Source: Alphaproteobacteria bacterium (GTDB lineage Bacteria; Pseudomonadota; Alphaproteobacteria; UBA2966; CAIVPW01). Taken from it: a stretch of 51,235 nt of DNA. The notes beneath the pieces are model-generated. The model saw only the letters and a program-made list of their open reading frames with translations, had not been told where the DNA came from and did not search any database. Location: contig JABHVE010000059.1 of the NCBI GenBank assembly GCA_018658465.1, positions 1 through 51,235 of the forward strand. Direction: 5' to 3'. This document shows positions 1 through 29,253 of the stretch, piece after piece; the first letter of the stretch is position 1, and each line of letters starts with the position of its first letter. Both the position numbers and the translations under genes were made by a program.

Positions 1-139
1 AATGGTGATGCCGGGTGACAATGTAAGCATGGATGTTGAGCTAATCGTGCCCATCGCCATGGACGAAGGCCTGCGTTTCGCCATCCGCGAAGGCGGTCGA
101 ACCGTCGGCGCCGGCGTTGTCGCCAAGGTCGTGGAATAG
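1..139 (+). CDS. tuf: Elongation factor Tu, C-terminal end (partial)
   Basis: Only the last 45 codons are in the window (frame starting at base 2, TAG stop). The peptide contains [35 protein letters not shown] in its central part and ends GVVAKVVE, the classic end of EF-Tu domain III, which helps hold aminoacyl-tRNA on the factor. It sits 38 nt before rpsJ in the same direction, the usual alphaproteobacterial fusion of the str and S10 operons. Upstream sequence is missing, so which tuf copy this is cannot be told. Confidence 0.95.
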
Positions 140-177
140 GGCCCTGGAATCGGCAGACGGATTAGAAGAGTAAAACA

Positions 178-486
178 ATGGACAGCCAAAACATCCGCAT
201 CTGCCTGAAGGCATTTGATCATCGCATTCTCGACCATTCGACGGCCGAGATCGTGACCACGGCAAAACGCACCGGGGCCGCAGTGCGCGGGCCTGTGCCT
301 TTGCCCACCAACATCGAAAAATTCACGGTGTTGCGGTCGCCGCATATCGACAAGAAATCGCGGGAGCAGTTCGAAATTCGGACCCACCGGCGGCTTCTGG
401 ACATCATTGACCCCACGCCGCAAACCGTTGACGCGCTGATGAAGCTCGATCTGGCGGCTGGCGTGGACGTGGAAATTAAACTTTAG
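178..486 (+). CDS. rpsJ: 30S ribosomal protein S10 (NusE)
   Basis: 102 aa, normal S10 length. It carries the [15 protein letters not shown] start and the [25 protein letters not shown] end of the family. S10 sits in the 30S head and, as NusE, joins the NusB antitermination complex. The ATG follows a purine-rich AGAAGAG about 7 nt upstream. It is the first ribosomal-protein gene of the S10 block and is followed 14 nt later by rplC. Confidence 0.98.
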
Positions 487-500
487 ATCAGGGCTGACAC

Positions 501-1328
501 ATGCGTACCGGATTAATTGCCCGAAAAGTTGGCAGCTCTCGTGTCTTCACAGAAGACGGCGCACACGTGCCCGTCACTCTGTTGCACATTGATGGCTGCC
601 AAGTCGTGGCGCACAAGACCCGCGCCAATGACGGATATGACGCCTTGCAATTGGGCGCAGGCCAGGCGAAAGCTAGCCGCGTGACCAAGGCAATGCGCGG
701 TCACTTTGCTAAGGCCAAAGTTGAGCCCAAGCAAAAGCTGGCCGAATTCAGAATTTCCGACGACGCGTTTGTCGATGTGGGTGCTGAAATCACCGCTGCA
801 CATTTTGTTGCGGGGCAAAAGGTCGACGTGTCTGGTACATCCATCGGCAAGGGATTTGCCGGTGCCATGAAGCGCCATAACTTTGCCGGCCTGGAAGCCA
901 CCCACAGTGTCTCCATCTCCCATCGTTCCCATGGCTCCACAGGACAATGCCAATATCCCGGTCGGGTTTTCAAAGGCAAGAAAATGGCCGGGCACATGGG
1001 TGCGGAACGGGTGACCACCCAGAATGTTGAAATTGCGCTGACCGACGCCGACAAAGGCCTGATCGCGATCAAGGGATCGGTTCCCGGATCCGACGGCGGC
1101 TGGGTGCGGATTACTGACGCGGAAAAAATTGCGGCGCCCGACGATCTGCCGTTCCCCGCAGCCACGGCGTCCGACGCAGCGGAAAATGGCGCAGTCGAAG
1201 ATGCAGCGCCCGCCGATGACACAAATGACGATTCCAGCGCACCTGAAGAAAATACAGCGTCCGATGACGCCGGTGGAAAAGAAGAAAATACTGCGTCCGA
1301 TGACGCTGGTGATGGGGACGCCAAGTAA
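501..1328 (+). CDS. rplC: 50S ribosomal protein L3 with acidic C-terminal extension
   Basis: 275 aa, against about 205-230 for most bacterial L3. Residues 1 to about 211 are a standard L3 core (start [11 protein letters not shown], then [10 protein letters not shown] and [28 protein letters not shown]). The last 64 residues are a low-complexity acidic tail with about 20 Asp/Glu, including the repeated [11 protein letters not shown]3 binds 23S rRNA early in assembly near the peptidyl transferase centre. The tail cannot bind rRNA like the basic core, and its role is unknown. The reading frame stays open to a TAA 1 nt before the rplD ATG, so the tail is not a frameshift artefact. Confidence 0.97.
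1245..1311 (+). repeat. 36-nt tandem repeat inside rplC tail
   Basis: GAAGAAAATACAGCGTCCGA followed by TGACGCCGGTG at 1245-1275 recurs at 1281-1311 with two silent differences. The period is 36 nt, or 12 codons. It encodes [12 protein letters not shown] and [12 protein letters not shown]. The multiple-of-three period keeps the frame, so unit number could change without disrupting L3. Confidence 0.85.
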
Positions 1329-1329
1329 A

Positions 1330-1950
1330 ATGAAAGCCAACGTCGTAACCCTTGAAAACAAAGCCGCTGGCTCCATTGAATTGGATGATGGTGTGTTTGG
1401 TTTGCCGTCGCGCCCTGATGTGCTGCATCAGGTGGTGCGTTGGCAACTTGCCAAGCGCCAGGCTGGCACCCACAAAACCAAGGGCGTTTCCGAAGTGCGT
1501 GGCACCACGGCCAAGCCATTCGCCCAAAAAGGCACGGGCCGCGCCCGCCGCGGCACCAACCGCGCTCCGCAAATGCGCGGTGGCGGCACCGTGTTTGGCC
1601 CGGTTGTGCGCAGCCACGGTCACAGCTTGAACAAAAAAGTCCGGGCATTGGGTCTGAAGACCGCATTGTCCGACAAGCAGCGCGAAGGCAAATTGGTGAT
1701 TGTCGATCAGGCCACCATGAAGGACGCCAAAACCGGCGGGCTTTCGGCGACCCTTAAAAAGCTGGGCCTGACTTCGGCCTTGGTCATCGATGGCACCACC
1801 ACCGACAATAATTTTCTCAGGGCCGCGGCCAACATTGCGGAGATCGATCTGCTCCCCGCTCAGGGCGCAAATGTTTACGACATCATGCGCCGCGATACCT
1901 TGGTTTTGACCAAAGCGGCGGTGGATCAGCTACAGGCACGGTTGTCATGA
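1330..1950 (+). CDS. rplD: 50S ribosomal protein L4
   Basis: 206 aa. The ORF track opens at 1129, but homology begins at [14 protein letters not shown], so ATG 1330 is chosen, one base after the rplC stop. An in-frame ATG at 1312 (MGTPSK) lies inside rplC and has no better ribosome site. The long basic loop [20 protein letters not shown], which reaches the exit tunnel, is intact. In enterobacteria L4 represses its own S10 operon; no such leader is visible here because tuf lies directly upstream. Confidence 0.96.
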
Positions 1951-2255
1951 AGACCGCAAAGATTACGAAAGAACGCATGTACCAGGTGATCGTTGCCCCC
2001 GTGGTGACGGAAAAATCCACCATGGGATCCGAACATAACCAGGTGACGTTCACCGTGCGGCGCGACGCCACAAAGAACGAAATCGGTGCCGCAGTCGAAG
2101 GCTTGTTTGACGTGAAGGTGACTAAAGTGAATACCCTGCGTAGGCCCGGCAAAGAAAAGATTTTTCGCGGTCACAAAGGCCGCAGAGCTGCCACCAAGAT
2201 GGCCATGGTGACCTTGGCCGAAGGCAACTCCATTGACGTGACGTCGGGGATTTAG
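1947..2255 (+). CDS. rplW: 50S ribosomal protein L23
   Basis: 102 aa, starting inside the rplD stop (ATGA overlap), so it is probably translationally coupled to L4. Family landmarks are [13 protein letters not shown] near the start and [31 protein letters not shown]23 lines the tunnel exit and docks trigger factor and SRP. The N-terminal [13 protein letters not shown] is slightly longer than in E. coli. Confidence 0.97.
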
Positions 2256-2257
2256 TC

Positions 2258-3088
2258 ATGGCATTGAAGACATTCCGCCCAACTACTCCCAGCCAACGGG
2301 AATTGGTGCAGACCGACCGCAGCACCTTGCACAAAGGTGGTCCGGTTAAGGTGCTGACCAAGGGTCTGACCAAATCAGGCGGTCGCAACAACTTGGGCCG
2401 CGTCACCGCTCGACGTCGTGGTGGTGGGCACAAGCGCAGCTATCGGATCATAGACTTCAAGCGCAAGAAATTTGATATGCCGGCCACGGTGGAACGCCTG
2501 GAATACGACCCCAATCGTTCTGCCCATATTGCCCTGGTGAAATACGAAGATGGCGAACAGGCTTATATCTTGGCGCCTCAACGTGTGGGACCGGGCGATA
2601 CGGTGATCGCCGGTGACAAGGTGGATGTGCAGCCGGGCAACGCCATGCCCATGCGCAACATTCCCGTAGGCACGGTCATCCACAACATTGAAATGAAAGT
2701 GGGCAAGGGCGGCCAGATCGCGCGCTCTGCCGGAACCTATGCCCAGTTGGTGGGCAAAGACTCGGGCTATGCTCTGCTGAAATTGGGATCAGGCGAACAG
2801 CGCATGATCAGGGCCGAATGCATGGCCACGATCGGCGCGGTATCCAACCCCGATCAAAAGAACATCAACCTTGGCAAAGCAGGCCGCAATCGCTGGCTGG
2901 GCAAACGCCCGTCGGTGCGCGGTGTTGCCATGAACCCGGTGGACCATCCCCACGGCGGCGGCGAAGGCCGGACGTCTGGTGGTCGTCATCCGGCAACGCC
3001 TTGGGGTAAGCCCACAAAGGGCAAGCGTACTCGCAGCAACAAAAAGACCGACCGGCTGATCATGCGCCGGCGGCACAAAAAGAGGTAG
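2258..3088 (+). CDS. rplB: 50S ribosomal protein L2
   Basis: 276 aa, normal length. It contains the highly conserved [19 protein letters not shown] segment, including the His implicated in the peptidyl-transferase region, and ends in the basic [15 protein letters not shown]. It is needed for joining of 30S and 50S subunits. It starts 2 nt after rplW, behind GGGGATT. Confidence 0.98.
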
Positions 3089-3091
3089 GGC

Positions 3092-3370
3092 ATGTCCAGA
3101 TCTGTTTGGAAAGGCCCCTTCGTGGACGGCTATCTGCTGAAAAAAGCGGATGAGTCCCAGAAATCAGGCCGCAAAGAAGTCATCAAAATTTGGTCCCGGC
3201 GTTCGACCATTTTGCCGCAATTCGTGGGGCTGACCTTTGGTGTGTACAACGGTCGTAAATTTATTCCGGTGCTGGTGACCGAAAGCATGGTCGGGCACAA
3301 GTTCGGCGAATTTTCTCCCACCCGTACCTTCCTCGGCCACGCGGCTGATCGACGGGCGAAAAGGGCTTAA
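3092..3370 (+). CDS. rpsS: 30S ribosomal protein S19
   Basis: 92 aa, exact family length. Motifs are [36 protein letters not shown] and [26 protein letters not shown]. It forms a complex with S13 in the 30S head near the A-site tRNA. It starts 3 nt after the rplB stop. Confidence 0.98.
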
Positions 3371-3375
3371 GGGCG

Positions 3376-3756
3376 ATGGGCAAGACAGCAAATCCTCGGC
3401 GTGTGGCCGAAAACGAAGCATTGGCGGTGGCGCGACGCATTCGTGTTGGCGCGCAAAAGCTGAACTTGGTGGCGCAGTCCATTCGCGGCTTGGATGTGAA
3501 TGGGGCTTTGGCGACTTTGACGTTCTCGAAACGTCGGGTTTCCAATGACGTGAAAAAGGTTCTTCAGTCGGCGATTGCCAATGCCGAAAACAATCATCAA
3601 TTGGATGTGGATCGCTTGTATGTGGCCGAGGCCAGCGTTGGCCGGTCCATGGTGCTGCGCCGTTTCCGGGCACGGGCTCGTGGGCGCGGGGCATCGATCC
3701 AGAAACCGTTTAGCCGTTTGCGCATCGTTGTGCGCGAACGCGCGGAAGCGGAATAG
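3376..3756 (+). CDS. rplV: 50S ribosomal protein L22
   Basis: 126 aa. Contains [50 protein letters not shown] and the tunnel hairpin ending [26 protein letters not shown]. Its beta-hairpin lines the exit tunnel, where macrolides and arrest peptides act. It lies 5 nt after rpsS with an AAGGGCG ribosome site overlapping the rpsS end. Confidence 0.97.
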
Positions 3757-3768
3757 GGGAATACTGGG

Positions 3769-4449
3769 ATGGGTCAAAAAGTAAATCCGATTGGACTGCG
3801 CGTTGGCGTAAACCGTACGTGGGATTCACGTTGGTACGCGGACGGAGCGGAATATTCCAAAATCCTGCACGAAGATTTGGGGATCCGCACGTATTTGGAA
3901 AAAGAATTGGAACAAGCGGGTGTCAGCAAGATCGTGATCGAACGGCCAGCTAAAAAGGCCCGGATCACTATTCACACGGCACGTCCGGGTGTGGTCATTG
4001 GCAAGAAAGGCGCAGACATCGAACGCCTGCGTACTGAATTGTCCAAACGCACCGGCGGCGAAGTGCATTTGAACATCGTCGAAATTCGCAAACCCGAAAT
4101 TGATGCCAAACTGGTGGCCGAAAACATCGCCCAGCAGTTGGTTCGCCGGGTGGCGTTCCGTCGGGCCATGAAGCGGTCGGTTCAGTCGGCCATGCGTTTG
4201 GGCGCGGAAGGCATTCGTATTAGCTGCAGCGGTCGTTTGGGCGGCGCGGAAATCGCCCGCACCGAATGGTACCGGGAGGGGCGCGTTCCCTTGCATACTC
4301 TGCGCGCGGATATTGATTACGGGACTGCCCGGGCCGATACGGCCTATGGCACATGCGGCGTAAAGGTTTGGGTTTTCCGTGGAGAGATCATGGCGCACGA
4401 TCCCATGGCTCAGGACAATCGCCGCGCCGAGCAACAGGTTCAGCGCTAG
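3769..4449 (+). CDS. rpsC: 30S ribosomal protein S3
   Basis: 226 aa. Begins [20 protein letters not shown]. The KH domain shows its GXXG loop in [15 protein letters not shown] (about residue 80). The C-terminal domain has the [29 protein letters not shown] signature. S3 forms part of the mRNA entry channel of the 30S subunit. Spacing to rplV is 12 nt. Confidence 0.98.
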
Positions 4450-4461
4450 AGGTCGCCGAGA

Positions 4462-4878
4462 ATGCTACAGCCAAAACGCACAAAGTATCGCAAGGCCCAC
4501 AAAGGCCGGATTCATGGAGTCGCCAAAGGCGGCTACCGTTTGAATTTCGGATCCTATGGCCTGAAAGCAACAACAGCTGGCCGGGTCACAGCGCGCCAGA
4601 TCGAAGCCTGCCGTCGTGCCATTACCCGGCACATCAAACGGTCCGGGCGCATGTGGATCAGAATTTTTCCCGACGTGCCGGTCAGCGCCAAGCCGACCGA
4701 AGTGCGGATGGGTAAGGGTAAGGGCACACCGGAATATTGGATGTGCCGGGTAAAACCTGGCCGGGTGATGTTTGAATTGGACGGTGTGCCGTCTGACCTG
4801 GCCGAAGAAGCATTTGCCAGAGGCGCCGCAAAGTTGCCGATCCAGACCACTGTGGTCGCGCGCGCGGGCTCGGTTTAG
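4462..4878 (+). CDS. rplP: 50S ribosomal protein L16
   Basis: 138 aa. Contains [54 protein letters not shown] and [12 protein letters not shown], all diagnostic of L16. It supports the A-site and P-site tRNA elbows near the 5S rRNA. Length is normal. Confidence 0.98.
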
Positions 4879-4902
4879 GCAGAGGGACGAAAAGAAAAGA
4901 CG

Positions 4903-5109
4903 ATGAAAGCCGAGGATCTAAAGGGCAAGACGCCCGACGAAATGACGGGGGAGCTCCTGCAATTGCGCAAGGAAGCTTTCAATCTGCGGTTCCAGGCGGC
5001 CTCGGGCCAATTGGAAAACACAGCCAGAATCCGCCAGGTGCGCCGGGATATCGCCCGCATCAAAACGGTCCAAGGCAAAGCCACGGCAGACGCCGCGGCG
5101 AAGAAGTAG
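4903..5109 (+). CDS. rpmC: 50S ribosomal protein L29
   Basis: 68 aa, mostly helical, with the family pattern [40 protein letters not shown]29 sits beside L23 at the tunnel exit. It follows rplP by 24 nt, with GAGGGACGAAAAGAAAAG in the gap. Confidence 0.96.
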
Positions 5110-5119
5110 GAGAGACGAT

Positions 5120-5356
5120 TTGACTGGGCGGGTAATGCAAGGATTTGTGGTCAGTGATCGACCGAACAAGACTGTGGTGGTCGAAGTGGAGCGTCGTGTG
5201 CAGCATCCGCTGTACAAAAAGTATATTCGCCGCAGCAAAAAGTTTCACGCCCACGATGCAGCGAACGAATACAAGGTTGGCGACAAGGTGCGCATTCGTG
5301 AATGCAAGCCGATTTCGAAATTGAAGACTTGGGAAGTAATCGCCCGGGCCGAATAG
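5120..5356 (+). CDS. rpsQ: 30S ribosomal protein S17
   Basis: 78 aa from a TTG start at 5120, chosen because GGAGAG lies 6 nt upstream and the residues [33 protein letters not shown] fit the family from there. An ATG at 5135 would cut off five residues. The motif [35 protein letters not shown] is typical. It is a primary 16S rRNA-binding protein of the 30S body. Confidence 0.95.
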
Positions 5357-5376
5357 GCGGAGCGAAGGTAGAAGCG

Positions 5377-5745
5377 ATGATTCATCCAGAGACAAATCTA
5401 GAAGTTGCCGATAATTCGGGCGCGCGCCGGGTGCAATGCATCAAGGTGCTGGGCGGCTCAAAACGGAAAACCGCATCTGTGGGCGACACCATTGTCGTTT
5501 CCGTCAAAGAGGCAATTCCCCGGGGCAAGGTCAAAAAAGGTGAAGTGGTGCGCGCTGTGATCGTGCGCACGGCCAAAGAGGTGCGCCGGGCCGACGGCAG
5601 CGCCATTCGGTTTGATCGCAATGCCGCGGTGTTGATTACCCCAACAGGTGAGCCGATTGGCACACGTATTTTTGGCCCGGTGACCCGTGAATTGCGTGCA
5701 AAGCAGCACATGAAGATTGTTTCCTTGGCGCCCGAAGTCCTGTAA
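5377..5745 (+). CDS. rplN: 50S ribosomal protein L14
   Basis: 122 aa, the invariant L14 length, from ATG 5377. The longer ORF-track start at 5302 lies in rpsQ and is discarded. Begins [27 protein letters not shown], contains [26 protein letters not shown], and ends [16 protein letters not shown]. It bridges to the 30S subunit and is the docking site for RsfS-type factors. Confidence 0.98.
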
Positions 5746-5758
5746 CTGGTTGATTTTG

Positions 5759-6094
5759 ATGACAAATTCTAAAACCCCAAAAGTCCGGATCAAAAAAGGC
5801 GATACCGTCTTGGTAATTTCCGGTCGTGAAAAGGGCAAGCAAGGCACCGTAATAAAAGTGCTGCGTCGGGAATCCCGCGTGTTGGTCCAAGGCGTCAACA
5901 TGGTCAAACGCCACACCCGCCCGTCCCAAGTTTCCGCCGGCGGCGTCCTTGAAAAGGAAGCCCCCGTCCATATTTCCAACGTCGCATTTGTCGACCCGAA
6001 GGAAGGTGGCCCCACCAAGCTTGGCGTCAAAATCCTGAAGGATGGTCGCAAAGTGCGCGTCGCCAAGCGTTCCGGCGAAGTGGTGGATGCATAA
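5759..6094 (+). CDS. rplX: 50S ribosomal protein L24
   Basis: 111 aa from ATG 5759 ([34 protein letters not shown]). The ORF-track start at 5717 lies in rplN. In-frame TTG codons at 5750 and 5756 are possible alternatives because the region before the ATG has no clear Shine-Dalgarno. The KOW segment and [10 protein letters not shown] and [12 protein letters not shown]-like patterns identify L24, one of the two assembly initiators of the 50S subunit. Confidence 0.95.
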
Positions 6095-6095
6095 A

Positions 6096-6638
6096 ATGAC
6101 CCCTCGCTTTTTGACTCTCTATGACGCTGAAATTGCGCCGAAGCTGCGGACAAGCTTTGGTCATTCCAATCCCATGGCCGTTGCCCGGCTGGACAAAGTG
6201 ATTTTGAACATGGGCGTTGGCGACGCCGTCAATGATCGCAAGCACATCGAAGGTGCAGTGAATGATCTCACCGCCATTTCCGGGCAAAAGCCAGTGGTGG
6301 TAAAGGCCCGCAAATCCATCGCCGCATTCAAATTGCGCGAAGGGATGGCGATCGGTGTGAAAGTCACATTACGCCGCACCCGCATGTACGAATTTTTGGA
6401 TCGCTTGATCACCATCGCGCTGCCCCGGGTTCGGGATTTTCGCGGGGTCTCTCGGGCCAGCTTCGATGGCCGTGGCAATTACGCCATGGGCCTGAAGGAA
6501 CAATTGGTGTTCCCGGAAGTTGATTACGACAAAGTGGATACCGTTCGCGGATTCGATATCGCGATCGTCACCACTGCGGACAACGACGACGAAGCCCGGG
6601 AGCTTTTGGCCGGGTTCGGAATGCCGTTTCAAAGCTAG
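6096..6638 (+). CDS. rplE: 50S ribosomal protein L5
   Basis: 180 aa from ATG 6096. An in-frame ATG at 6087 overlaps the rplX end and would add MHK; either is possible. Landmarks are [46 protein letters not shown] and [33 protein letters not shown]. It binds 5S rRNA with L18 and contacts P-site tRNA. Confidence 0.96.
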
Positions 6639-6652
6639 GAAGAGTCAAAGAT

Positions 6653-6958
6653 ATGGCGAAAAAAAGTTCCATCGAGAAAAACAACCGGCGTCGTCGGATG
6701 GTTGCGGCCTATGCCGATCGACGGGCAAAGTTGAAGGCGTTGGCGCGAGATAAAAGCCAACCGCAAGAAATCCGCTTCGAAGCGCGATTGAAACTTGCTC
6801 AGTTGCCTCGCAATTCGTCCGCCACGCGTGTTCGCAACCGCTGCGAACTTTCCGGGCGTCCGCGTGCGTACTATCGGAACTTTAGAATGTCGCGCATTGC
6901 TTTGCGCGAACTGGCCTCTCGGGGACAAATCCCCGGCATGGTCAAGTCAAGTTGGTAA
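6653..6958 (+). CDS. rpsN: 30S ribosomal protein S14 (zinc-free type)
   Basis: 101 aa, the long form without the CXXC pairs of the short zinc-binding paralogue. Begins [14 protein letters not shown] and ends [41 protein letters not shown]. It works in the 30S head beside S10 and S3. Ribosome site AGGAAG lies 12 nt before ATG. Confidence 0.97.
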
Positions 6959-6986
6959 CCCGGAATATGGGAAAGGAGATGCCTTC

Positions 6987-7385
6987 ATGTCGATGACCGA
7001 TCCCATCGGGGATATGCTAACGCGTATTCGTAACGGCCAGCGCGTTCGCGCCGGATCCGTGGTCAGCCCGTTGTCCAAATTCCGCATCAACGTTCTCGAT
7101 GTGCTGGAAAAAGAAGGCTACATCCGTGGCTATGGCCGCGAAGATGCTGACGATGGCAAAGAACAATTGCGTATCGAGCTGAAATATCACGAAGGTGAGC
7201 CGGTCATTCGCACCATCGCGCGGGTATCCACCCCTGGGCGCCGGGTCTATTCGGGAATTGCTGACCTGGCCGACGTTTGCAACGGCTTGGGTATTGCGAT
7301 CATTTCCACGCCGCGAGGTGTGATGTCTGATTCACAGGCCCGCGCTGCCAATGTTGGCGGCGAAGTTCTGTGTAACGTGATTTAG
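6987..7385 (+). CDS. rpsH: 30S ribosomal protein S8
   Basis: 132 aa from ATG 6987, behind a strong GGAAAGGAG site. The ORF-track start at 6795 is inside rpsN. Motifs are [40 protein letters not shown] and [25 protein letters not shown]. It binds the 16S central domain. In enterobacteria S8 represses the spc operon; whether it does so here is unknown. Confidence 0.97.
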
Positions 7386-7394
7386 GGAACCACC

Positions 7395-7928
7395 ATGTCT
7401 CGCATCGGTCTTAAACCAATCCCTGTGCCTGATGGCGTCACGGTGGAAATTTCCGGCAAGGATGTTTCGGCCAAGGGAAAAATCGGCACCCTCAGCTTGA
7501 CGTTGGTCGAAGAAGTTTCGGCGGCCCAGGCGGACGGCAAAGTCGTGGTGACTCCCCAAGACGATACGGTACGCGCACGCTCCATGTGGGGCATGCAGCG
7601 GACCATGATCAACAACATGATTACTGGCGTGTCGGCAGGATTCGAGAAAAACCTGGAAATCCAAGGCGTTGGTTACCGCGCCGCGGTGAAGGGCAAAAAC
7701 TTGCAGCTTCAGTTGGGGTTCAGCCACGATGTTTTGTACCCGATCCCTGAAGGCATCAAGATCACCTGCGAAAAGCCGACCATGGTCAAGATTTTCGGGG
7801 CAAACCGTCAGCAAGTTGGTCAAATCGCCGCTGAAATTCGCGCTTATCGCCCGCCGGAGCCGTACAAGGGCAAGGGCGTGCGCTATTTGAACGAGCAAGT
7901 ATTCCGCAAGGAAGGCAAAAAGAAGTAG
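7395..7928 (+). CDS. rplF: 50S ribosomal protein L6
   Basis: 177 aa, normal length, with two copies of the L6 fold. Begins [24 protein letters not shown] and has the C-terminal signature [24 protein letters not shown]. It lies near the sarcin-ricin loop and contacts translational GTPases. Spacing to rpsH is 9 nt. Confidence 0.98.
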
Positions 7929-7938
7929 GTCAAGAAAC

Positions 7939-8301
7939 ATGGATGCCCGTACCCAAAGATTTCAGCGTCGTCGCGATCGTGTGCGCTACAAGGTCCGTGA
8001 ACATGGCCGCGGTCGTCCGCGCCTTTCGGTCCACCGCACAAACGAACACATTTATGCCCAGATCATCGACGATGGTAAGGGCGAAACGGTGGCGTCCGCG
8101 TCGACCTTGGAAGTCGATATGCGCAAGGCCTTAAAGACCGGCGCCGATAAAGACGCTGCCACCAAAATTGGCGCACTGATTGCCGAACGGGCGAAGGCCA
8201 AAGGCATCACCGAGGTCGTGTTTGATCGCGGCGGGTTCATTTTCCATGGCCGAGTAAAGGCTTTGGCGGATGCCGCGCGCGAAGCCGGCCTTAAATTTTA
8301 G
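7939..8301 (+). CDS. rplR: 50S ribosomal protein L18
   Basis: 120 aa. Has the basic 5S-rRNA-binding N-terminus ([39 protein letters not shown]) and the C-terminal GIAEV-like [33 protein letters not shown]. Translation probably starts at ATG 7939, behind AGGTCAAG. Confidence 0.97.
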
Positions 8302-8328
8302 ATTTAGAGACAGGAACAGGACAGCACC

Positions 8329-8904
8329 ATGGCCAGAGGCAATTCCTTTAACCGGCAAGAAAGCGACATCGTCGACAAGCTCGTCGCGGTGAATCGCGTC
8401 GCCAAAGTGGTCAAGGGCGGACGCCGGTTCGGGTTTGCAGCGTTGGTTGTGGCCGGTGACGGCAACGGTCGCGTGGGCCAAGGCCATGGCAAAGCCCGCG
8501 AAGTTCCCGAAGCAATCCGCAAGGCAACCGAAGCGGCCAAACGCAACATGATCCGCGTGCCGCTGCGCGATGGGCGGACCCTACATCACGACTCCGAAGA
8601 GCGTTATGGCGCCGGATTTGTGGTGTTGCGTTCTGCCCCTCCGGGCACCGGGATTATTGCTGGTGGGCCGATGCGCGCAGTGTTTGAAACGTTAGGTGTC
8701 CAAGACGTGGTTGCAAAATCACTCGGGACTTCCAATCCTTATAATATGGTCAAAGCAACCTTTGCCGCCTTGGAACAGGCCATGTCACCGAAATCGGTGG
8801 CTGCACGTCGCGGCAAGACGGTGGCCGAGGTATTGGGTGGCGGACGACGCAAATCCCAAAAATCGGCAAAAACCGCCGAACAGGGGGAGGCCGTCACCGA
8901 ATAG
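8329..8904 (+). CDS. rpsE: 30S ribosomal protein S5
   Basis: 191 aa. The N-terminal double-stranded-RNA-binding fold has [45 protein letters not shown], and the C-terminal domain has [37 protein letters not shown]. It helps control decoding accuracy and mRNA unwinding. The last about 30 residues ([19 protein letters not shown]) are a variable tail. Confidence 0.98.
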
Positions 8905-8919
8905 GTGGCGGATTGAATT

Positions 8920-9108
8920 GTGGCAAAAGGCAAAATTAAAGTGACCCAAACGGGTAGCCCCATTGGTCGGCCCAACGACCAACGCCAAACATTGATTGGC
9001 TTGGGACTGAACAAGATGCACCGGACGCGGGAATTGGAAGACACTCCAGCCGTGCGCGGTATGGCGGCCAAGGTAAAGCACCTGGTCCGCGTCGAAGAAA
9101 CCAAGTAG
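8920..9108 (+). CDS. rpmD: 50S ribosomal protein L30
   Basis: 62 aa from a GTG start at 8920 ([48 protein letters not shown]). No in-frame ATG precedes the conserved KVTQ segment, so GTG is well supported, although no strong Shine-Dalgarno is seen. Length is normal for the short bacterial L30. Confidence 0.95.
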
Positions 9109-9133
9109 CAAGAGTTGAGCGGGTCATCAGGAC

Positions 9134-9682
9134 ATGAAACTTAATCAAATTGCCACGAAGAATGGCGCGACCACGGCACGGCGCCGGGTTGGCCGAGGCC
9201 CCGGATCGGGTCTTGGCAAAACCAGCGGCCACGGTCAAAAGGGTCAGAAATCCCGGACCGGCGTTGCCATCGGTTCCTTCGAAGGCGGCCAAATGCCGAT
9301 CTACATGCGCCTGCCAAAGCGCGGGTTCAACAACGTTTCCTCCAAACGGTTTCAGGTGGTGAACCTGGGTCGTTTGCAACAGGCTGTGGACGCTGGGAAG
9401 CTTGACGCGAAGGCGACGGTTGATGCCGCCGCGTTGCAGGCAGCTGGCGTCATCCGACGGCCCCGGGACGGGGTTCGTATCCTCGCCAAGGGTGACCTGA
9501 AAGCCAAGCTGACCCTGGATGTTGCCGGTGCGTCAGCGGCCGCGACTGCGGCCATCGAAGCAGCGGGTGGCTCCATAACCGTGCTTCCGCCCAAGGTTAA
9601 GACGGAGAAAAAGGGCCGGACCAAGGCATCTCGAGCCAAGGCCAAGGGTGCCGCGGCACCAAGCGAGCCTGCAAAGGAATAA
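9134..9682 (+). CDS. rplO: 50S ribosomal protein L15 with Ala/Lys-rich tail
   Basis: 182 aa, against the usual 145-160. The core has [43 protein letters not shown] and the C-terminal [23 protein letters not shown]. The extra about 35 residues ([29 protein letters not shown]) are basic, Ala-rich and low complexity. L15 is a late assembly protein near 5S rRNA. It ends 3 nt before secY. Confidence 0.97.
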
Positions 9683-9685
9683 GTC

Positions 9686-11029
9686 ATGGCGTCCGCCGCC
9701 GAACAACTAGCCGCGAATATAAATTTCGGCGCCTTTTCCAAGGCGACGGAACTAAAAAAGCGCCTGTGGTTCACGGTTATTGTGCTGGTCGTCTACCGCC
9801 TGGGCACTTACATCCCCATTCCTGGGATCGATCCGCAGATTCTAGAACAAATTTTCGAGCAGAATCGCGGCGGAATATTGGGCATGTTCGACATGTTCGC
9901 CGGCGGCGCCCTCAGCCGCATGACGATTTTCGCTCTGAACATCATGCCGTACATTTCGGCGTCCATCATCATCCAGCTGATGACGACGGTGTCCGATCGC
10001 CTGGCGCAGCTTAAAAAAGAAGGCGAATCCGGGCGCAAAAAGATCAATCAATATACCCGCTATGGCACCGTGCTTTTGGCGACGATTCAGGGCTATGCCA
10101 TTGCAGTGGGTCTGGAAAATATGTCGGCCGGTTCCGGCAGCGCGGTGATCGACCCCGGCCTGTATTTCCGGTTTACCGCCGTGGTGACGTTGACGGGCGG
10201 CACGATTTTCTTGATGTGGCTGGGCGAACAGATCACGGCGCGCGGCGTCGGCAACGGTATTTCGCTGATTATCATGGCGGGAATTGTTGCCAATCTGCCC
10301 GGGGCCCTAGCCAGTACGTTGGAATTGGGGCGCACAGGGGCTCTGTCTGTTGCCTTCATCCTGTTGCTGCTGGTTATGGCAGTTTCCATCATCGCCTTGA
10401 TCGTGTTTGTGGAACGGGCCCAGCGGCGCATTTTGGTGCAATACCCTAAACGCCAAGTGGGCCAGCGCATGTTTGGCGGCGAAAGCTCGCATCTGCCGTT
10501 GAAGCTCAATACTGCTGGCGTCATCCCGCCGATTTTCGCCTCGTCTTTATTGCTGCTGCCGATCACCATCGCTCAATTCACCGCGGGCAATGCCCCGGGG
10601 TTCATGACCACGGTGACCGCCATGTTGGGGCGGGGACAGCCCTTGTATTTGGCCCTGTATGGCCTGCTGATCGTGTTCTTTTGCTATTTCTATACCTCGG
10701 TGGTGTTTAACCCCGAGGACACAGCCGACAATCTGAAAAAATACGGTGGGTTCATCCCCGGTATTCGGCCCGGCAAGAACACTGCGAACTATCTCGATTT
10801 TGTCCTGACCCGATTGACCACCGTTGGCTCCGCATACTTGGTGCTTGTGGCGTTGTTGCCCGAAGTGTTGATTTCGCGATACGGGGTGCCGTTCTATTTT
10901 GGCGGCACATCGTTGCTGATCGTTGTGACAGTGACGTTGGATACGGTGATGCAGATCCAATCCCATCTGTTGGCCCACCAATACGAAGGGCTGATTAAGA
11001 AATCAAAGCTGAAGGGTAACCGCCGGTGA
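9686..11029 (+). CDS. secY: Preprotein translocase subunit SecY
   Basis: 447 aa, normal length, with about ten hydrophobic membrane segments. Landmarks are GTYIPIPGID, GGALSRMTIFALNIMPYISASIIIQLM, GNGISLIIMAGIVANLP, VERAQRRILVQYPKRQVG and NPEDTADNLKKYGGFIPGIRPG. It forms the protein-conducting channel with SecE and SecG, driven by SecA or docked ribosomes. The C-terminus KLKGNRR is encoded in copy 1 of a 20-bp triplication that runs on towards adk. Ribosome site AAAGGAATAA. Confidence 0.98.
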   Translation: MASAAEQLAANINFGAFSKATELKKRLWFTVIVLVVYRLGTYIPIPGIDPQILEQIFEQNRGGILGMFDMFAGGALSRMTIFALNIMPYISASIIIQLMTTVSDRLAQLKKEGESGRKKINQYTRYGTVLLATIQGYAIAVGLENMSAGSGSAVIDPGLYFRFTAVVTLTGGTIFLMWLGEQITARGVGNGISLIIMAGIVANLPGALASTLELGRTGALSVAFILLLLVMAVSIIALIVFVERAQRRILVQYPKRQVGQRMFGGESSHLPLKLNTAGVIPPIFASSLLLLPITIAQFTAGNAPGFMTTVTAMLGRGQPLYLALYGLLIVFFCYFYTSVVFNPEDTADNLKKYGGFIPGIRPGKNTANYLDFVLTRLTTVGSAYLVLVALLPEVLISRYGVPFYFGGTSLLIVVTVTLDTVMQIQSHLLAHQYEGLIKKSKLKGNRR

Positions 11030-11071
11030 ACAAGGGAAACCGCCGGTGAACAAGGGTAACCGCCGTTGAAC
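11012..11071 (+). repeat. Three tandem 20-bp repeats across the secY/adk junction
   Basis: AAGGGTAACCGCCGGTGAAC (11012-11031), AAGGGAAACCGCCGGTGAAC (11032-11051) and AAGGGTAACCGCCGTTGAAC (11052-11071). Copy 1 holds the secY stop within GTGA, copy 3 the adk start within TTGA. The copies create two mini-ORFs, 11026-11049 and 11046-11069, each encoding MNKGNRR and linked to each other and to both genes by 4-nt overlaps. The simplest ancestor is one copy with a direct GTGA overlap of secY and adk (inference). Confidence 0.95.
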
Positions 11072-11716
11072 CTGATCATGCTTGGGCCACCAGGGGCGGG
11101 AAAAGGCACCCAGTCTCAGCGTATCGAGGCCGCCAGGGGCCTAAAACAGCTTTCCACCGGCGATATGCTGCGCGCTGAAGTCGCGTCAGGGTCGGATCTA
11201 GGGATATCTCTGAAGAAAACCATGGACGCCGGTCAACTGGTAACGGACTCGGTGATCGTCGCAATGATTTCCAGCCGTATCGACCAGCCCGATTGCGCGA
11301 ACGGCTTCATTTTGGACGGGTTCCCGCGCACTGTGGCCCAGGCCGAAGCCTTGGATACGATGCTGGAAGAACGCAAAATGAGAATGGATCACGTCATTCA
11401 GATCGTTGTGGACCAGGAAGCAATGGTTCAACGCATTTCTGGGCGGATTACATGCGAACAATGTGGCACCGGGTACCACGACACGTTTGATCCGCCGAAA
11501 ACCGCGGGTGAGTGCGATAAATGCGGCCCAACCAATTTAATTCGCCGATCCGATGACAATCCGGACACCGTGCGGGCCAGGCTAAAAGCCTACGATGAGC
11601 AAACGGCGCCGCTGCTGCCCTATTACCAGGATCGAGGGGTGCTGCAAGACGTAAATGGCATGGCCAGCGCCGACCAAGTGGCGACCGAAATAGCGGGGCT
11701 TTTGGATGCCGCGTAA
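11066..11716 (+). CDS. adk: Adenylate kinase, zinc-lid type
   Basis: 216 aa from a TTG start ([20 protein letters not shown]). Catalyses ATP + AMP to 2 ADP in the cytosol. The P-loop GPPGAGKGT is at residues 7-15, followed by [18 protein letters not shown] and the LID with two CXXC pairs ([10 protein letters not shown] and CDKCG), implying bound zinc. The TTG is the third member of a repeated GTGA/GTGA/TTGA series, with AAGGG about 10 nt upstream as ribosome site. Co-directional with secY, as in most spc operons. Confidence 0.97.
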
Positions 11717-11720
11717 CACC

Positions 11721-11748
11721 TTGACTTGGATGCCGGAATTTCTATACT
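11721..11748 (+). promoter_or_regulatory. Sigma-70-type promoter of the alpha operon
   Basis: TTGACT (11721-11726), 16-nt spacer, TATACT (11743-11748): five of six consensus bases in each hexamer. It starts 5 nt after the adk stop and would give a leader of about 120 nt before rpsM. This is the strongest promoter-like sequence noticed in the window and suggests rpsM-rpsK-rpoA-rplQ has its own transcription start. Confidence 0.7.
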
Positions 11749-11828
11749 CCAAGCGGTTTTCGGGCTCTTCGGCGGCGCGATGCTGTGGGCTGGAAAATTA
11801 ACAGAATTTTTCAGATTTGACGTTTGTT

Positions 11829-11862
11829 CGGCCTGTAAGGGCCGGTTTTCTGCGGTTTTTTT
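11829..11862 (+). promoter_or_regulatory. Leader stem-loop and T7 tract before rpsM
   Basis: CGGCC-TGTAAG-GGCCG (11829-11844) is followed by an overlapping CCG...CGG (11842-11855) that leads directly into seven T residues (11856-11862), 14 nt before the rpsM ATG. The two helices share bases and could be alternatives, as in an attenuator. Stems are short, so this is only a candidate. Confidence 0.35.
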
Positions 11863-11876
11863 AACGGAGCTTAGCG

Positions 11877-12245
11877 ATGGCGCGAATCGCCGGCGTAAAT
11901 ATCCCCACCGATAAACGGGTGGTCATCGCCTTGACCTACATTTTTGGCATTGGCCGTACCAAGGCAGTGGAAATCTGCGCCAAGGTCGGGGTGCCTGCGG
12001 ACCGCCGGGTAAACGAGCTGGCCGATGCAGAAGTCATGCAAATTCGCGACGTGATTTCCCACGATTATGCCGTGGAAGGCGATCTGCGGCGGGAAGTCGC
12101 CATGAACATCAAACGACTGATGGATTTGGGCTGCTATCGCGGCTTGCGTCACCGACGCAAACTGCCGGTGCGGGGCCAACGGACACACACGAACGCACGC
12201 ACCCGTAAGGGACCATCGCGGGCGATCGCAGGCAAAAAGAAGTAG
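11877..12245 (+). CDS. rpsM: 30S ribosomal protein S13
   Basis: 122 aa. [34 protein letters not shown] at the start and [36 protein letters not shown] at the end are diagnostic. It contacts S19, 23S rRNA and P-site tRNA from the 30S head. Ribosome site GGAG lies 9 nt before ATG. First gene of the alpha operon, 160 nt after adk. Confidence 0.98.
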
Positions 12246-12256
12246 GTCAAAGTTAA

Positions 12257-12640
12257 ATGGCGGAAGCACGAGTAAAGCGCAGCGCGCGCAAGAATATTAC
12301 GTCGGGGGTCGCCCATGTTTTGGCGACCTTCAACAATACGATGATTACCATTTCCGACGCCCAAGGGAATGCAATCAGTTGGGCATCTGCTGGCCAACAG
12401 GGCTTTAAAGGATCACGGAAATCCACACCGTATGCCGCCCAGTTGGCGGCCGAAGATGCGGGCAAAAAGGCTATGGAACACGGAATGAAAACCGTGATCA
12501 TCGAAGTAAAAGGGCCGGGATCGGGCCGGGAGTCTGCATTGCGTGCGCTCCAGGCGGTTGGACTTACCGTTACCTCAATTAGCGACGTTTCCGGGGTTCC
12601 CCACAATGGGTGCAGGCCACCCAAACGGCGGCGGGTTTAA
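12257..12640 (+). CDS. rpsK: 30S ribosomal protein S11
   Basis: 127 aa. Motifs are [50 protein letters not shown] and the C-terminal [19 protein letters not shown]. It lines the mRNA path on the 30S platform. It is followed by rpoA, with no rpsD between, as is usual in alphaproteobacteria. Confidence 0.98.
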
Positions 12641-25763: not shown

Positions 25764-26501
25764 ATGCCTTGGCTAATTCTTGGAACCAGCGTCCTGGTGG
25801 CGTTTGTGCTGGCCGGGTCGTTCTTCGCCAACGCCCCACCCAAGACTTTGGCTAAGGCGTTGAAGTGGGGCGCCATTGGCCTAGGCATTTTGCTTCTGAT
25901 CGGGGTTTTGGCCACGGGCCGCGGGGCACTGCTGCTGCCTTTGGTCCTGTTCGGCATACCGGCGGGGCGGCGCATGCTGCGCGGCGGCGGCTTTCGCATT
26001 CCAGGCATGGGATCGGCCCCCAGCTCTGGCAACACATCAGAGGTCGAAACCGCCACCCTGCGCATGGTGTTAGATCATGATTCCGGCACGGTGGACGGCG
26101 AAGTCATCGCCGGGACATTTGCCGGTCGCGGCCTGGGGGATCTTAAAGTGGAAGACTTGGTCGATCTGTTGGACGAATGCCGCCGCGATGACGCAGAGTC
26201 CGCGCCCCTGGTGGAAGCCTATCTTGATCGCGCCCACCCGGAATGGCGGCAATTTGCCGGCGAAGGCTACGAAGAACAAGCCGAGGGCGAACCTGCGGAC
26301 CCCAACGACCCCGGTGGCTATGACACCCCCATGAATGCCAAAGAAGCCCGTGGCATTTTGGAAGTCGGGGCGGACGCCACTGGCGACGACATCAAGAAAG
26401 CCCATCATCGCCTGATGAAAAAGATGCACCCGGACCAGGGCGGCTCCAACTACCTGGCCAGCAAAATCAACCAAGCCAAAGACGTCCTTCTCGGGTCTTA
26501 A
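25764..26501 (+). CDS. Membrane-anchored J-domain (DnaJ-like) protein
   Basis: 245 aa. Two N-terminal hydrophobic segments (about 3-22 and 33-62), then a Gly-rich basic stretch, a middle domain (ETATLRMVLDHDSGTVDGEVIAGTFAGRGL), an acidic linker and a C-terminal J domain (MNAKEARGILEVGADATGDDIKKAHHRLMKKMHPDQGGSNYLASKINQAKDVL) with intact HPD. Architecture and the short C-terminal J domain resemble Tim14/Pam18-like proteins of alphaproteobacteria. It probably recruits DnaK to the inner membrane. Confidence 0.85.
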   Translation: MPWLILGTSVLVAFVLAGSFFANAPPKTLAKALKWGAIGLGILLLIGVLATGRGALLLPLVLFGIPAGRRMLRGGGFRIPGMGSAPSSGNTSEVETATLRMVLDHDSGTVDGEVIAGTFAGRGLGDLKVEDLVDLLDECRRDDAESAPLVEAYLDRAHPEWRQFAGEGYEEQAEGEPADPNDPGGYDTPMNAKEARGILEVGADATGDDIKKAHHRLMKKMHPDQGGSNYLASKINQAKDVLLGS

Positions 26502-26508
26502 CTCTGCC

Positions 26509-26550
26509 GATCAGAGTCACGTGGTGTTAAGCGACGCCACGATCTGCTCT
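26509..26550 (-). repeat. Bulged palindromic repeat, copy A
   Basis: GATCAGAGTCACGTGGTGT, loop, ACGCCACGATCTGCTCT. Core CGTGGTGT pairs with ACGCCACG (one G-T), outer CAGA with TCTG. Follows the J-domain gene stop by 7 nt. Duplicated 52 nt downstream as copy B, including the flanking TCTGCC. Confidence 0.85.
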
Positions 26551-26560
26551 CAAATCTGCC

Positions 26561-26600
26561 GATCAGATTCACGTGGCGTGAAGCCACCCCACGATCTGAT
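26561..26600 (-). repeat. Bulged palindromic repeat, copy B
   Basis: GATCAGATTCACGTGG ... CCACGATCTGAT, with arms identical to the family. The inner part GTGGC-GTGAA-GCCAC can form an alternative hairpin. It ends 2 nt from the HPt stop codon on the other strand, so A and B together fill the gap between convergent genes. Confidence 0.85.
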
Positions 26601-26601
26601 C

Positions 26602-26868
26602 TCAGCCCAATAGTTTTTCTATGGCAGGAGTCACTTGGGAATAGCCTCGCTCGATCTCGACAAGGATTTCTGGGATTGCTTCCAAGGCCCCGTCCCTTGC
26701 GGCAGCTTCCGCTTTACCGGCCCATTCCGAAAGTTCCTGTGCGCCCAACATGGCGCTGTTCCCCTTAATCTTGTGCGCCGCAGCCTCGATTGATTTGCGG
26801 TCTCCACCGGGCACGGTGGAACGCATTTCGTCTATCAGTCTGGGAATCGAGTCGAAACTCATTTGCAA
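26602..26868 (-). CDS. HPt (histidine phosphotransfer) domain, split from the upstream hybrid kinase
   Basis: 88 aa from TTG 26868 (or ATG 26862). The phosphate-accepting His is in IEAAAHKIKGNSAMLGAQEL at position 32. The start is doubtful: the same frame is open upstream and encodes the missing first HPt helix ([25 protein letters not shown]) right up to the G9 tract that ends the kinase gene. Removing one G would fuse it to the kinase as a 762-aa protein. As it stands, the HPt domain needs internal initiation (GAGG lies 5 nt before the TTG), ribosomal frameshifting, transcript slippage or a phase switch. Confidence 0.75.
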   Translation of the reverse strand: MQMSFDSIPRLIDEMRSTVPGGDRKSIEAAAHKIKGNSAMLGAQELSEWAGKAEAAARDGALEAIPEILVEIERGYSQVTPAIEKLLG

Positions 26869-26941
26869 AGCGTCCTCATAGGCTTCCCCAAGGGTTTCTC
26901 GGGAGCTTTGAATGACCTGAACGGCTTCGGGGGAGAGAATG

Positions 26942-28891
26942 TTATCCCCCCCCCTTCAAACCATCTCGGTCCGGAGGAGCCGCCTCTACTGCCGAGTAAC
27001 CCGCTACCCGATCGGTAACCTCAGCGATGGCCCGCCAGACATCAGGGACCTTGAATGGCTTAGTGATGTAACGATCAAAGCCGTCATTTTTTGCGGCACT
27101 TGTGTCAACCTCCAAGGCGTTTGCGCTGATTGCAATTACGGGGATGTCTTTCGTCAACGGATCTTGCTTCAGCAAGCGGGTGGCCTCAGACCCGCTCATA
27201 CCCGGCAAATTGATATCCATAAGCACTATATCTGGCGGGCTTTTTCTAATTGAGGCCAATCCCATCTCCGCAGTTTTGGCGACCTCGAGCTCGAAATTCG
27301 GCGCTTCGGCCATGATCGCCTTCATCAATTGGATGTTGGCCGGGTTATCCTCAATATAGAAAACCCGCTTGTGGGAAGCTTCGATGCCAGGAGCAACTGA
27401 GAAAATCTCTGCAGCAGAAACGTAATCTTCCTTGATCGCACCACTCTCTGGGGTGGTGAATGGGGCTGCGGGAATTTCGAACCAAAAGAGGCTGCCTTTT
27501 CCAAGGGTGCTTTCAACGCCCATGCGGCCACCCATTTGCTCGACCAATTGTTTGCTAATGGTAAGACCGATGCCGGTCCCCTCGACAGGGCTGCTCGCTT
27601 TGTCCAAACGATCGAACGGCTTGAACAGGGCGTCAAAATTTTCCTCTGGGATTCCTTGACCGGTATCGGATACCGAAAAACGAATTTGGCCCCCCTCAAC
27701 GGAGGTGCAACTAAGATCTACGCTGCCGCCCGGTCGATTGTACTTCACGGCATTGGACAGCAAATTAAGAAGAACCTGTCTGGCACGGGTGAGGTCGGCA
27801 AGAACCCCATCGGTCAACGTTTCAGGCTCACTAGCCTCCACCTTGATCCCGTATTGCTTCCCCAGCGCTTTTGCCATCCCCATGGCGGGTGAAATGAGTG
27901 CGTCGATGCTGACGGCTTCGATGGAAATTTCAAGGTTGCCGGATTCAATTTTCGCCAATTCCAGGACATCGTTGATTAAGTCCAGCAGATGATGGCCGCT
28001 TTCCAGAATGTGCCCCACGCCTTCACGCTGGATTTCGCTGTAAGAAATCCCCGGATCGTTCAGAATTTGACCGAACCCGATAATGGCGTTTAGGGGTGTC
28101 CTCAATTCATGGCTCATGGACGACAAGAATTCTGACTTCGCGTTGTTGGCGGTTTCGGCCTCTTCCTTGGCCACAAGCAGCGATTTTTCGGTTTGTTCGC
28201 GGTATGCCACGAAATGCCGGAGCCGCAAGAAGATGATCAGGCTGATCCCGATCAGCAAAAACAGCGCGATCGTAAAAGCGACAACGGAGTAAGTTCGCAA
28301 TTGGCTTGATTGGGTCTCTCGGTCGATTAAAAGAGTCTCTTCTTCGGCGGCCAATTCCTGAACAATCATTCTGATTTGGTCCATGATCTCTTTGCCCACA
28401 TTGGTTGTGACCAATTCAAGGGCGGCTTCCAACCCTTCGGATTGGTACAAATCGATTGTCGTTTCCAGCTCGTCTACCTTTTCGTCAATCAACGGGGAAA
28501 GATTTGAAATTCTTAATTGTTGGCGAGGATTGTCCGCCGTTAGGGTACGGAGATTTTCGAGGGCCGAATTGACATTTTGAACAGCCGTACGGAACGGAGC
28601 GAGGTACCCCACCTGGCCGGTAAGCAAAAATCCGCGCTGCCCGGTCTCTAGATCCTGCATTGTTGACAAAAACCCGACGATCGCCGTCTGGACTTGGCGT
28701 GTATGGGTTACCCATTCTTCGGATTTCTCCGATTCATTTTCGACGAAGTAGAAAATGGCAAGCATCGACAGCAGGACAAGGAACCCCACCACAAGGGACG
28801 AAGAACCGAAAACGCCGATTGGGTTGACCCGCGCCATGGGTCCTGGCCGTCCGGTTTCGATGCTAAAATTCGCCACGGTCACCTTTTTCAA
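26942..28891 (-). CDS. CHASE3-type hybrid sensor histidine kinase with receiver domain
   Basis: 649 aa from TTG 28891; ATG 28837 ([10 protein letters not shown]) is an alternative. Membrane helices at about 29-50 and 201-223 enclose a periplasmic CHASE3 domain ([21 protein letters not shown]). HisKA has [21 protein letters not shown] with His261. HATPase has [21 protein letters not shown] and [21 protein letters not shown] has [12 protein letters not shown] with Asp559 and Lys in YITKPFK. It ends in GGG and a stop created by a G9 tract; one base fewer continues into the HPt domain. Ligand unknown. The TTG overlaps the stop of a small upstream ORF (TTGA). Confidence 0.9.
26946..26954 (-). repeat. 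G9 homopolymer at the kinase/HPt junction
   Basis: Nine C on the + strand (nine G in the coding strand) directly before the kinase stop: AAG GGG GGG GGA TAA. With eight G the frame reads AAG GGG GGG GAT AAC and enters the HPt domain. Such tracts favour slipped-strand mispairing, polymerase slippage and sequencing error. Confidence 0.95.
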
Positions 28892-29164: not shown

Positions 29165-29204
29165 GCAGATCGTGGCCCGCTCCTGGGCCACGTGACTCTG
29201 ATCG
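29165..29204 (+). repeat. Bulged palindromic repeat, copy C
   Basis: GCAGATCGTGGCCC-GCTCCT-GGGCCACGTGACTCTGATCG. Perfect 8-bp core stem CGTGGCCC/GGGCCACG, outer CAGA/TCTG, TGA bulge on the 3' side. Tandem with copy D at a 49-bp offset. Confidence 0.9.
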
Positions 29205-29213
29205 CAAACTAGA

Positions 29214-29253
29214 ACAGATCGTGGCCCGCTGTTGGGCCACGTGAATCTGATCG
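29214..29253 (+). repeat. Bulged palindromic repeat, copy D, abutting galU
   Basis: ACAGATCGTGGCCC-GCTGTT-GGGCCACGTGAATCTGATCG. Outer stem CAGAT/ATCTG, core CGTGGCCC/GGGCCACG, bulge TGA. It ends 6 nt before the galU ATG and therefore occupies the place of a Shine-Dalgarno sequence. Confidence 0.9.

Follow-up and report, generated by a model that had tools for sequence, protein, structure and literature searches.

Reading frames at the kinase locus

The window analysed here is the whole stretch of 51,235 nucleotides from an alphaproteobacterial draft genome (2.05 Mb in 155 contigs), and all unlabelled positions refer to it. Its reverse strand carries an ORF for a hybrid histidine kinase of 649 residues (26942..28891, counted from the listed TTG; as the frame is open to 28969, its actual start is uncertain). 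Pfam profiles place within it, in this order, a CHASE3 sensor domain (PF05227, residues 58-193, 28313..28720, E 2.6e-43), a HisKA domain (PF00512, residues 251-318, 27938..28141, E 2.2e-20), a HATPase_c domain (PF02518, residues 366-476, 27464..27796, E 2.3e-28) and a receiver domain (REC, Response_reg, PF00072, residues 510-621, 27029..27364, E 5.3e-21). The protein ends in DGLKGGG, with its stop codon lying in a run of nine G, as had been noted from the sequence: nine C on the forward strand (26946-26954) form a G9 run on the coding strand, and the 3' end of the ORF reads AAG GGG GGG GGA TAA.

The same run opens a second frame. This frame is closed by a TGA (26958-26956) directly 5' of the G9, so that the run lies between that TGA and the kinase frame's TAA, and it then stays open as far as a stop at 26602, encoding from the run to that stop an HPt module of 116 residues (26605..26952, reverse strand). 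The first ATG, GTG or TTG in the HPt frame is the TTG at 26868, from which an ORF of 88 residues is listed (26602..26868, reverse strand; the next ATG is at 26862-26860). The 26 codons before it (26869..26946, reverse strand) hold no start codon and encode the linker between REC and HPt, a capping helix and the start of the first bundle helix. As assembled, the HPt part is thus one frame off and past the TAA, and only read-through gives the kinase a C-terminal HPt domain; a +1 (or -2) ribosomal shift would reach it, as would a transcript lacking one G. Joining the two parts yields 762 residues, the length that the sequence-only reading had predicted for a run of eight G.

The Pfam Hpt profile (PF01627) matches the longer stretch at 26632-26871 (reverse strand) with 54.6 bits against a cut-off of 24.6, and the phospho-acceptor histidine lies in the motif AAAHKIKG. 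Modelled by AlphaFold with no alignment, the 116 residues (pLDDT 90.9, pTM 0.85) form helices at 8-21, 23-49, 52-68, 72-86 and 90-115, i.e. a five-helix HPt fold whose first helix (helix A) is encoded in the start-less part and caps the four-helix bundle. In a Foldseek search the model matched best to 7c1i, HptB of Pseudomonas aeruginosa (TM 0.81), and also to the HPt domains of ArcB and BarA; in a phmmer comparison with the 7c1i HptB the alignment covered residues 13-107 and so reached into the start-less part. The TTG corresponds to residue 29 of the stretch, and the ORF that starts there was earlier said to be less than a full domain. This is borne out insofar as the ORF lacks the capping helix and some six residues at the start of the first bundle helix, whereas the Pfam profile is nearly covered by this ORF alone (positions 4-81 of 84, 53.5 bits). 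Four further HPt matches above the Pfam cut-off occur elsewhere in the genome.

In the surroundings of the kinase, two copies of a dispersed repeat (CACGTGRNTCTGATCG) bracket the locus in opposite orientation (26508-26575 on the reverse and 29189-29253 on the forward strand); this repeat has 9 near copies in the window (0.16 expected) and 35 exact copies in the genome. The first part of the window (1-12500) holds many short forward-strand ORFs with good codon scores and resembles a phage or gene-transfer-agent cluster.

One gene or two

A codon model trained on the confident genes of the window assigned a score of 8.1 to the 26 start-less codons in the HPt frame. All 690 open wrong-frame segments scored lower (99th percentile 3.0), and 21% of the true coding segments scored 8.1 or lower, which places the start-less leader inside the range of true coding sequence. 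When all same-strand junctions in the window were scanned, a long start-less leader with a clear coding score was found at this junction only (24 codons, 6.5); the one other leader that scored above 1 belongs to an antisense shadow ORF, and at the remaining junctions of evident genes the downstream start lies at most 8 codons from the upstream stop, or ahead of it. The scan also located the only interval in which a single indel can join the two frames, namely 26942-26955, which is the G run with its two stop-codon borders.

Comparison with related loci points in the same direction. In the read-through protein 95 residues separate the REC lysine from the HPt histidine, within the range of intact fused relatives (89-126). 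Of the 103 related loci with downstream sequence, 13 carry an HPt domain fused to the kinase in frame, and not one has its kinase gene followed directly by a separate HPt gene. A separate HPt gene as a habit of the family was rejected; the two apparent cases (L103 and L100) turned out to be HPt portions of other genes, for kinases and CheA. Because the G run is the sole joinable interval, the leader has coding character, the capping helix is encoded without a start codon, the spacing fits and none of the 103 loci has a separate HPt gene, the sequence and the structural model indicate that the two ORFs are very probably the halves of a single HK-REC-HPt gene whose frame changes at the G run. 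Its domain order in read-through is the BarA/ArcB layout that the sequence-only reading had recognised, in keeping with the structural matches.

The kinase could instead end naturally after REC and be followed by an independent HPt protein of 86-88 residues, translated from the TTG at 26868 or the ATG at 26862. Near relatives of the kinase core do stop after REC, the short ORF is by itself above the Pfam cut-off, and a GAGGA motif lies about 10 nt 5' of the ATG. Nevertheless, such an arrangement would leave the coding signal of the start-less codons and the lack of separate HPt genes among the relatives unexplained, would cost the HPt protein all of helix A and some of helix B, and would need chance to place the junction at one of only 20 runs of at least eight G per 2 Mb; we therefore regard it as very unlikely. 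A search of 26480-27050 for promoter-like or terminator-like sites found none.

An end after REC is not odd in itself, since relatives and a paralogue in the same genome (on contig C70) also end naturally soon after this domain. The tail that follows the REC lysine in the truncated kinase measures 38 residues, against 5-70 in the kinase-core relatives, most of which stop soon after REC and have no HPt domain. What sets the present locus apart from these kinases is the coding HPt segment in the next frame, which they do not have. The C70 paralogue had been suspected to be a second broken kinase; its gene is intact and its stop after REC is natural.

An orthologue of the whole kinase was sought in 60 relatives and in the GTDB species genomes, where only the core gave matches, at no more than 49% identity; the closest (43-49%, GTDB) end naturally shortly after REC. 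The same genomes yielded no orthologue with a variable or a conserved tract, and the fused relatives are in frame throughout. The HPt part found only distant matches, and the N-terminal CHASE3 part matched best to a stand-alone CHASE3 ORF that encodes a membrane protein with no kinase behind it (in an order-level relative, G008; L202, 146-949, reverse complement). An exact search of viral contigs for the sequence adjoining the tract gave no match. As no orthologue was found, the fused state is an inferred rather than an observed ancestral state.

Cause of the frame break

The genome contains six G9 and fourteen G8 runs (20 in 2.05 Mb) and none that is longer. In the window the single G9 compares with 2.7 expected from window shuffles, which is not above chance, and the four G8 matches compare with 7.9; the genome as a whole, at 40 times the length, has 26 such matches. 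What is unusual about the G9 is therefore not its presence, it is its location exactly at the frame junction. GGG accounts for 201 of the 749 glycine codons in the genes counted, and with this codon common here, ordinary coding sequence can give rise to a G run. The other in-gene G8 and G9 runs that could be judged are all read in frame and none of them splits a gene. Since G runs are rare and the judged ones are in frame, nothing points to a set of contingency loci or to homopolymer error in general, and error of this kind throughout the genome was rejected on the same observation. Two of the remaining runs (L003 1501-1509, i.e. G000:C39:7777-7785, and L131 1241-1248, in G000:C90) are in sense orientation and close upstream of other histidine kinase genes or right at their 5' ends, so that together with the present locus 3 of the 20 runs adjoin kinases, an observation made after the fact.

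The account that we favour, with moderate confidence, is that the assembled allele of an HK-REC-HPt gene carries a one-base length change in the G run of the REC-HPt linker, which arose when replication slipped in the lineage that was sequenced. A single gene would have encoded a membrane-bound hybrid kinase, comprising a CHASE3 sensor, a HisKA/HATPase core, a receiver and a C-terminal HPt domain, before a slip in the run shifted the frame; the slip may well be recent, since neither half has decayed further. The resulting HK-REC protein would have a receiver without its own HPt domain as phosphate acceptor, and the phosphorelay would then be either blocked or rerouted via another HPt protein. 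Such a change of length would in principle be reversible.

The gene may also be intact in the organism, the draft contig being one base too long at the homopolymer. In the GeneTack survey of prokaryotic frame transitions, frameshifts that occur singly in a conserved gene were mostly due to sequencing error or to an indel mutation (PMC3711429), which together with the undecayed state of both halves and the division of the draft into 155 contigs agrees with an error. The assembly does not appear to be generally poor at homopolymers, however, because the other G8 and G9 runs in recognisable genes are in frame and the 51 kb window contains no second junction of this sort between two real genes, and we consider an error at this one run unlikely. 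A plain slip of one base, be it in the lineage or in the assembly, is the simplest account and needs fewer assumptions than a switch.

The sequence-only reading had cast the tract as a switch, operating by contingency, slippage or programmed frameshifting, and had named sequencing error as the alternative. Nothing that we found supports a switch, G runs being few and the other in-gene ones that could be judged being in frame, and on the whole we doubt that a free-living alphaproteobacterium uses this run, where REC borders on HPt, as a switch, phase-variable or recoded, that sets the presence of the HPt domain. In its phase-variable form, slipped-strand mispairing would toggle between HK-REC-HPt and HK-REC among subpopulations. 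The position of the run exactly at a domain border, a length that falls among known variable tracts, the two further runs just 5' of other kinase genes, and the precedents of BvgS, of the same layout, at C6/C7 (PMC1891110) and of ArsS in Helicobacter pylori, which varies at C15 towards the end of its coding sequence (PMC12838425), would all suit such a locus. A genome enriched in long homopolymer tracts would be expected of contingency loci, but the 20 runs of G8 or longer are far fewer than extrapolation of the window shuffles would predict, none exceeds nine, and the tract is readable as ordinary codons, which makes phase variation quite unlikely.

Recoding of a single allele, in which either RNA polymerase slips on the G run or the ribosome shifts by +1 there, would yield a truncated protein alongside the full-length one. 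A GGG in the P site, with a stop codon close by, can re-pair after a +1 move inside the run, and the HPt part is undecayed. Among bacterial ribosomal shifts, however, +1 is a rarer kind than -1, transcript slippage is less common on G runs than on A/T runs, and no relative was found to have a conserved tract; we regard recoding as highly improbable.

Comparison with known systems and implications

The truncation of a sensor kinase gene by one base in a G run, most likely through an ordinary slip, is of a kind that is already known, and BvgS, likewise an HK-REC-HPt protein, is the direct precedent. In bvgS of Bordetella pertussis an extra base in a C6 run (C6/C7) truncates the sensor kinase and gives rise to the avirulent phase (PMC1891110). 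Both loci thus concern a hybrid sensor kinase gene that is cut by one extra base in a C or G run. In bvgS, though, both alleles have been seen and are tied to a phase change, whereas here there is a single draft allele; moreover, the present run is longer and sits in the REC-HPt linker, where it costs the kinase nothing but its HPt domain. ArsS is, as far as known, not a hybrid kinase. It resembles the present case in that a one-base step in a homopolymer, close to the 3' terminus of the kinase gene, alters the C-terminus of the protein, and differs in that its tract (C15) is much longer than G9 and has been observed to vary among isolates (PMC12838425). ArcB and BarA share with the read-through protein the order of the domains and the HPt fold; the present protein differs from them in its CHASE3 sensor, its 762 residues and an HPt part that is out of frame.

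The locus would join the kind represented by BvgS and ArsS only if variation of the tract were shown. If the tract is not variable, the result is a point of annotation, i.e. the 649-residue kinase and the 88-residue HPt ORF should be treated as one interrupted gene rather than as two. If the tract does vary in nature, this would be the second hybrid kinase after BvgS to be switched at a G/C run, and the switch would act by removing the HPt output module alone.
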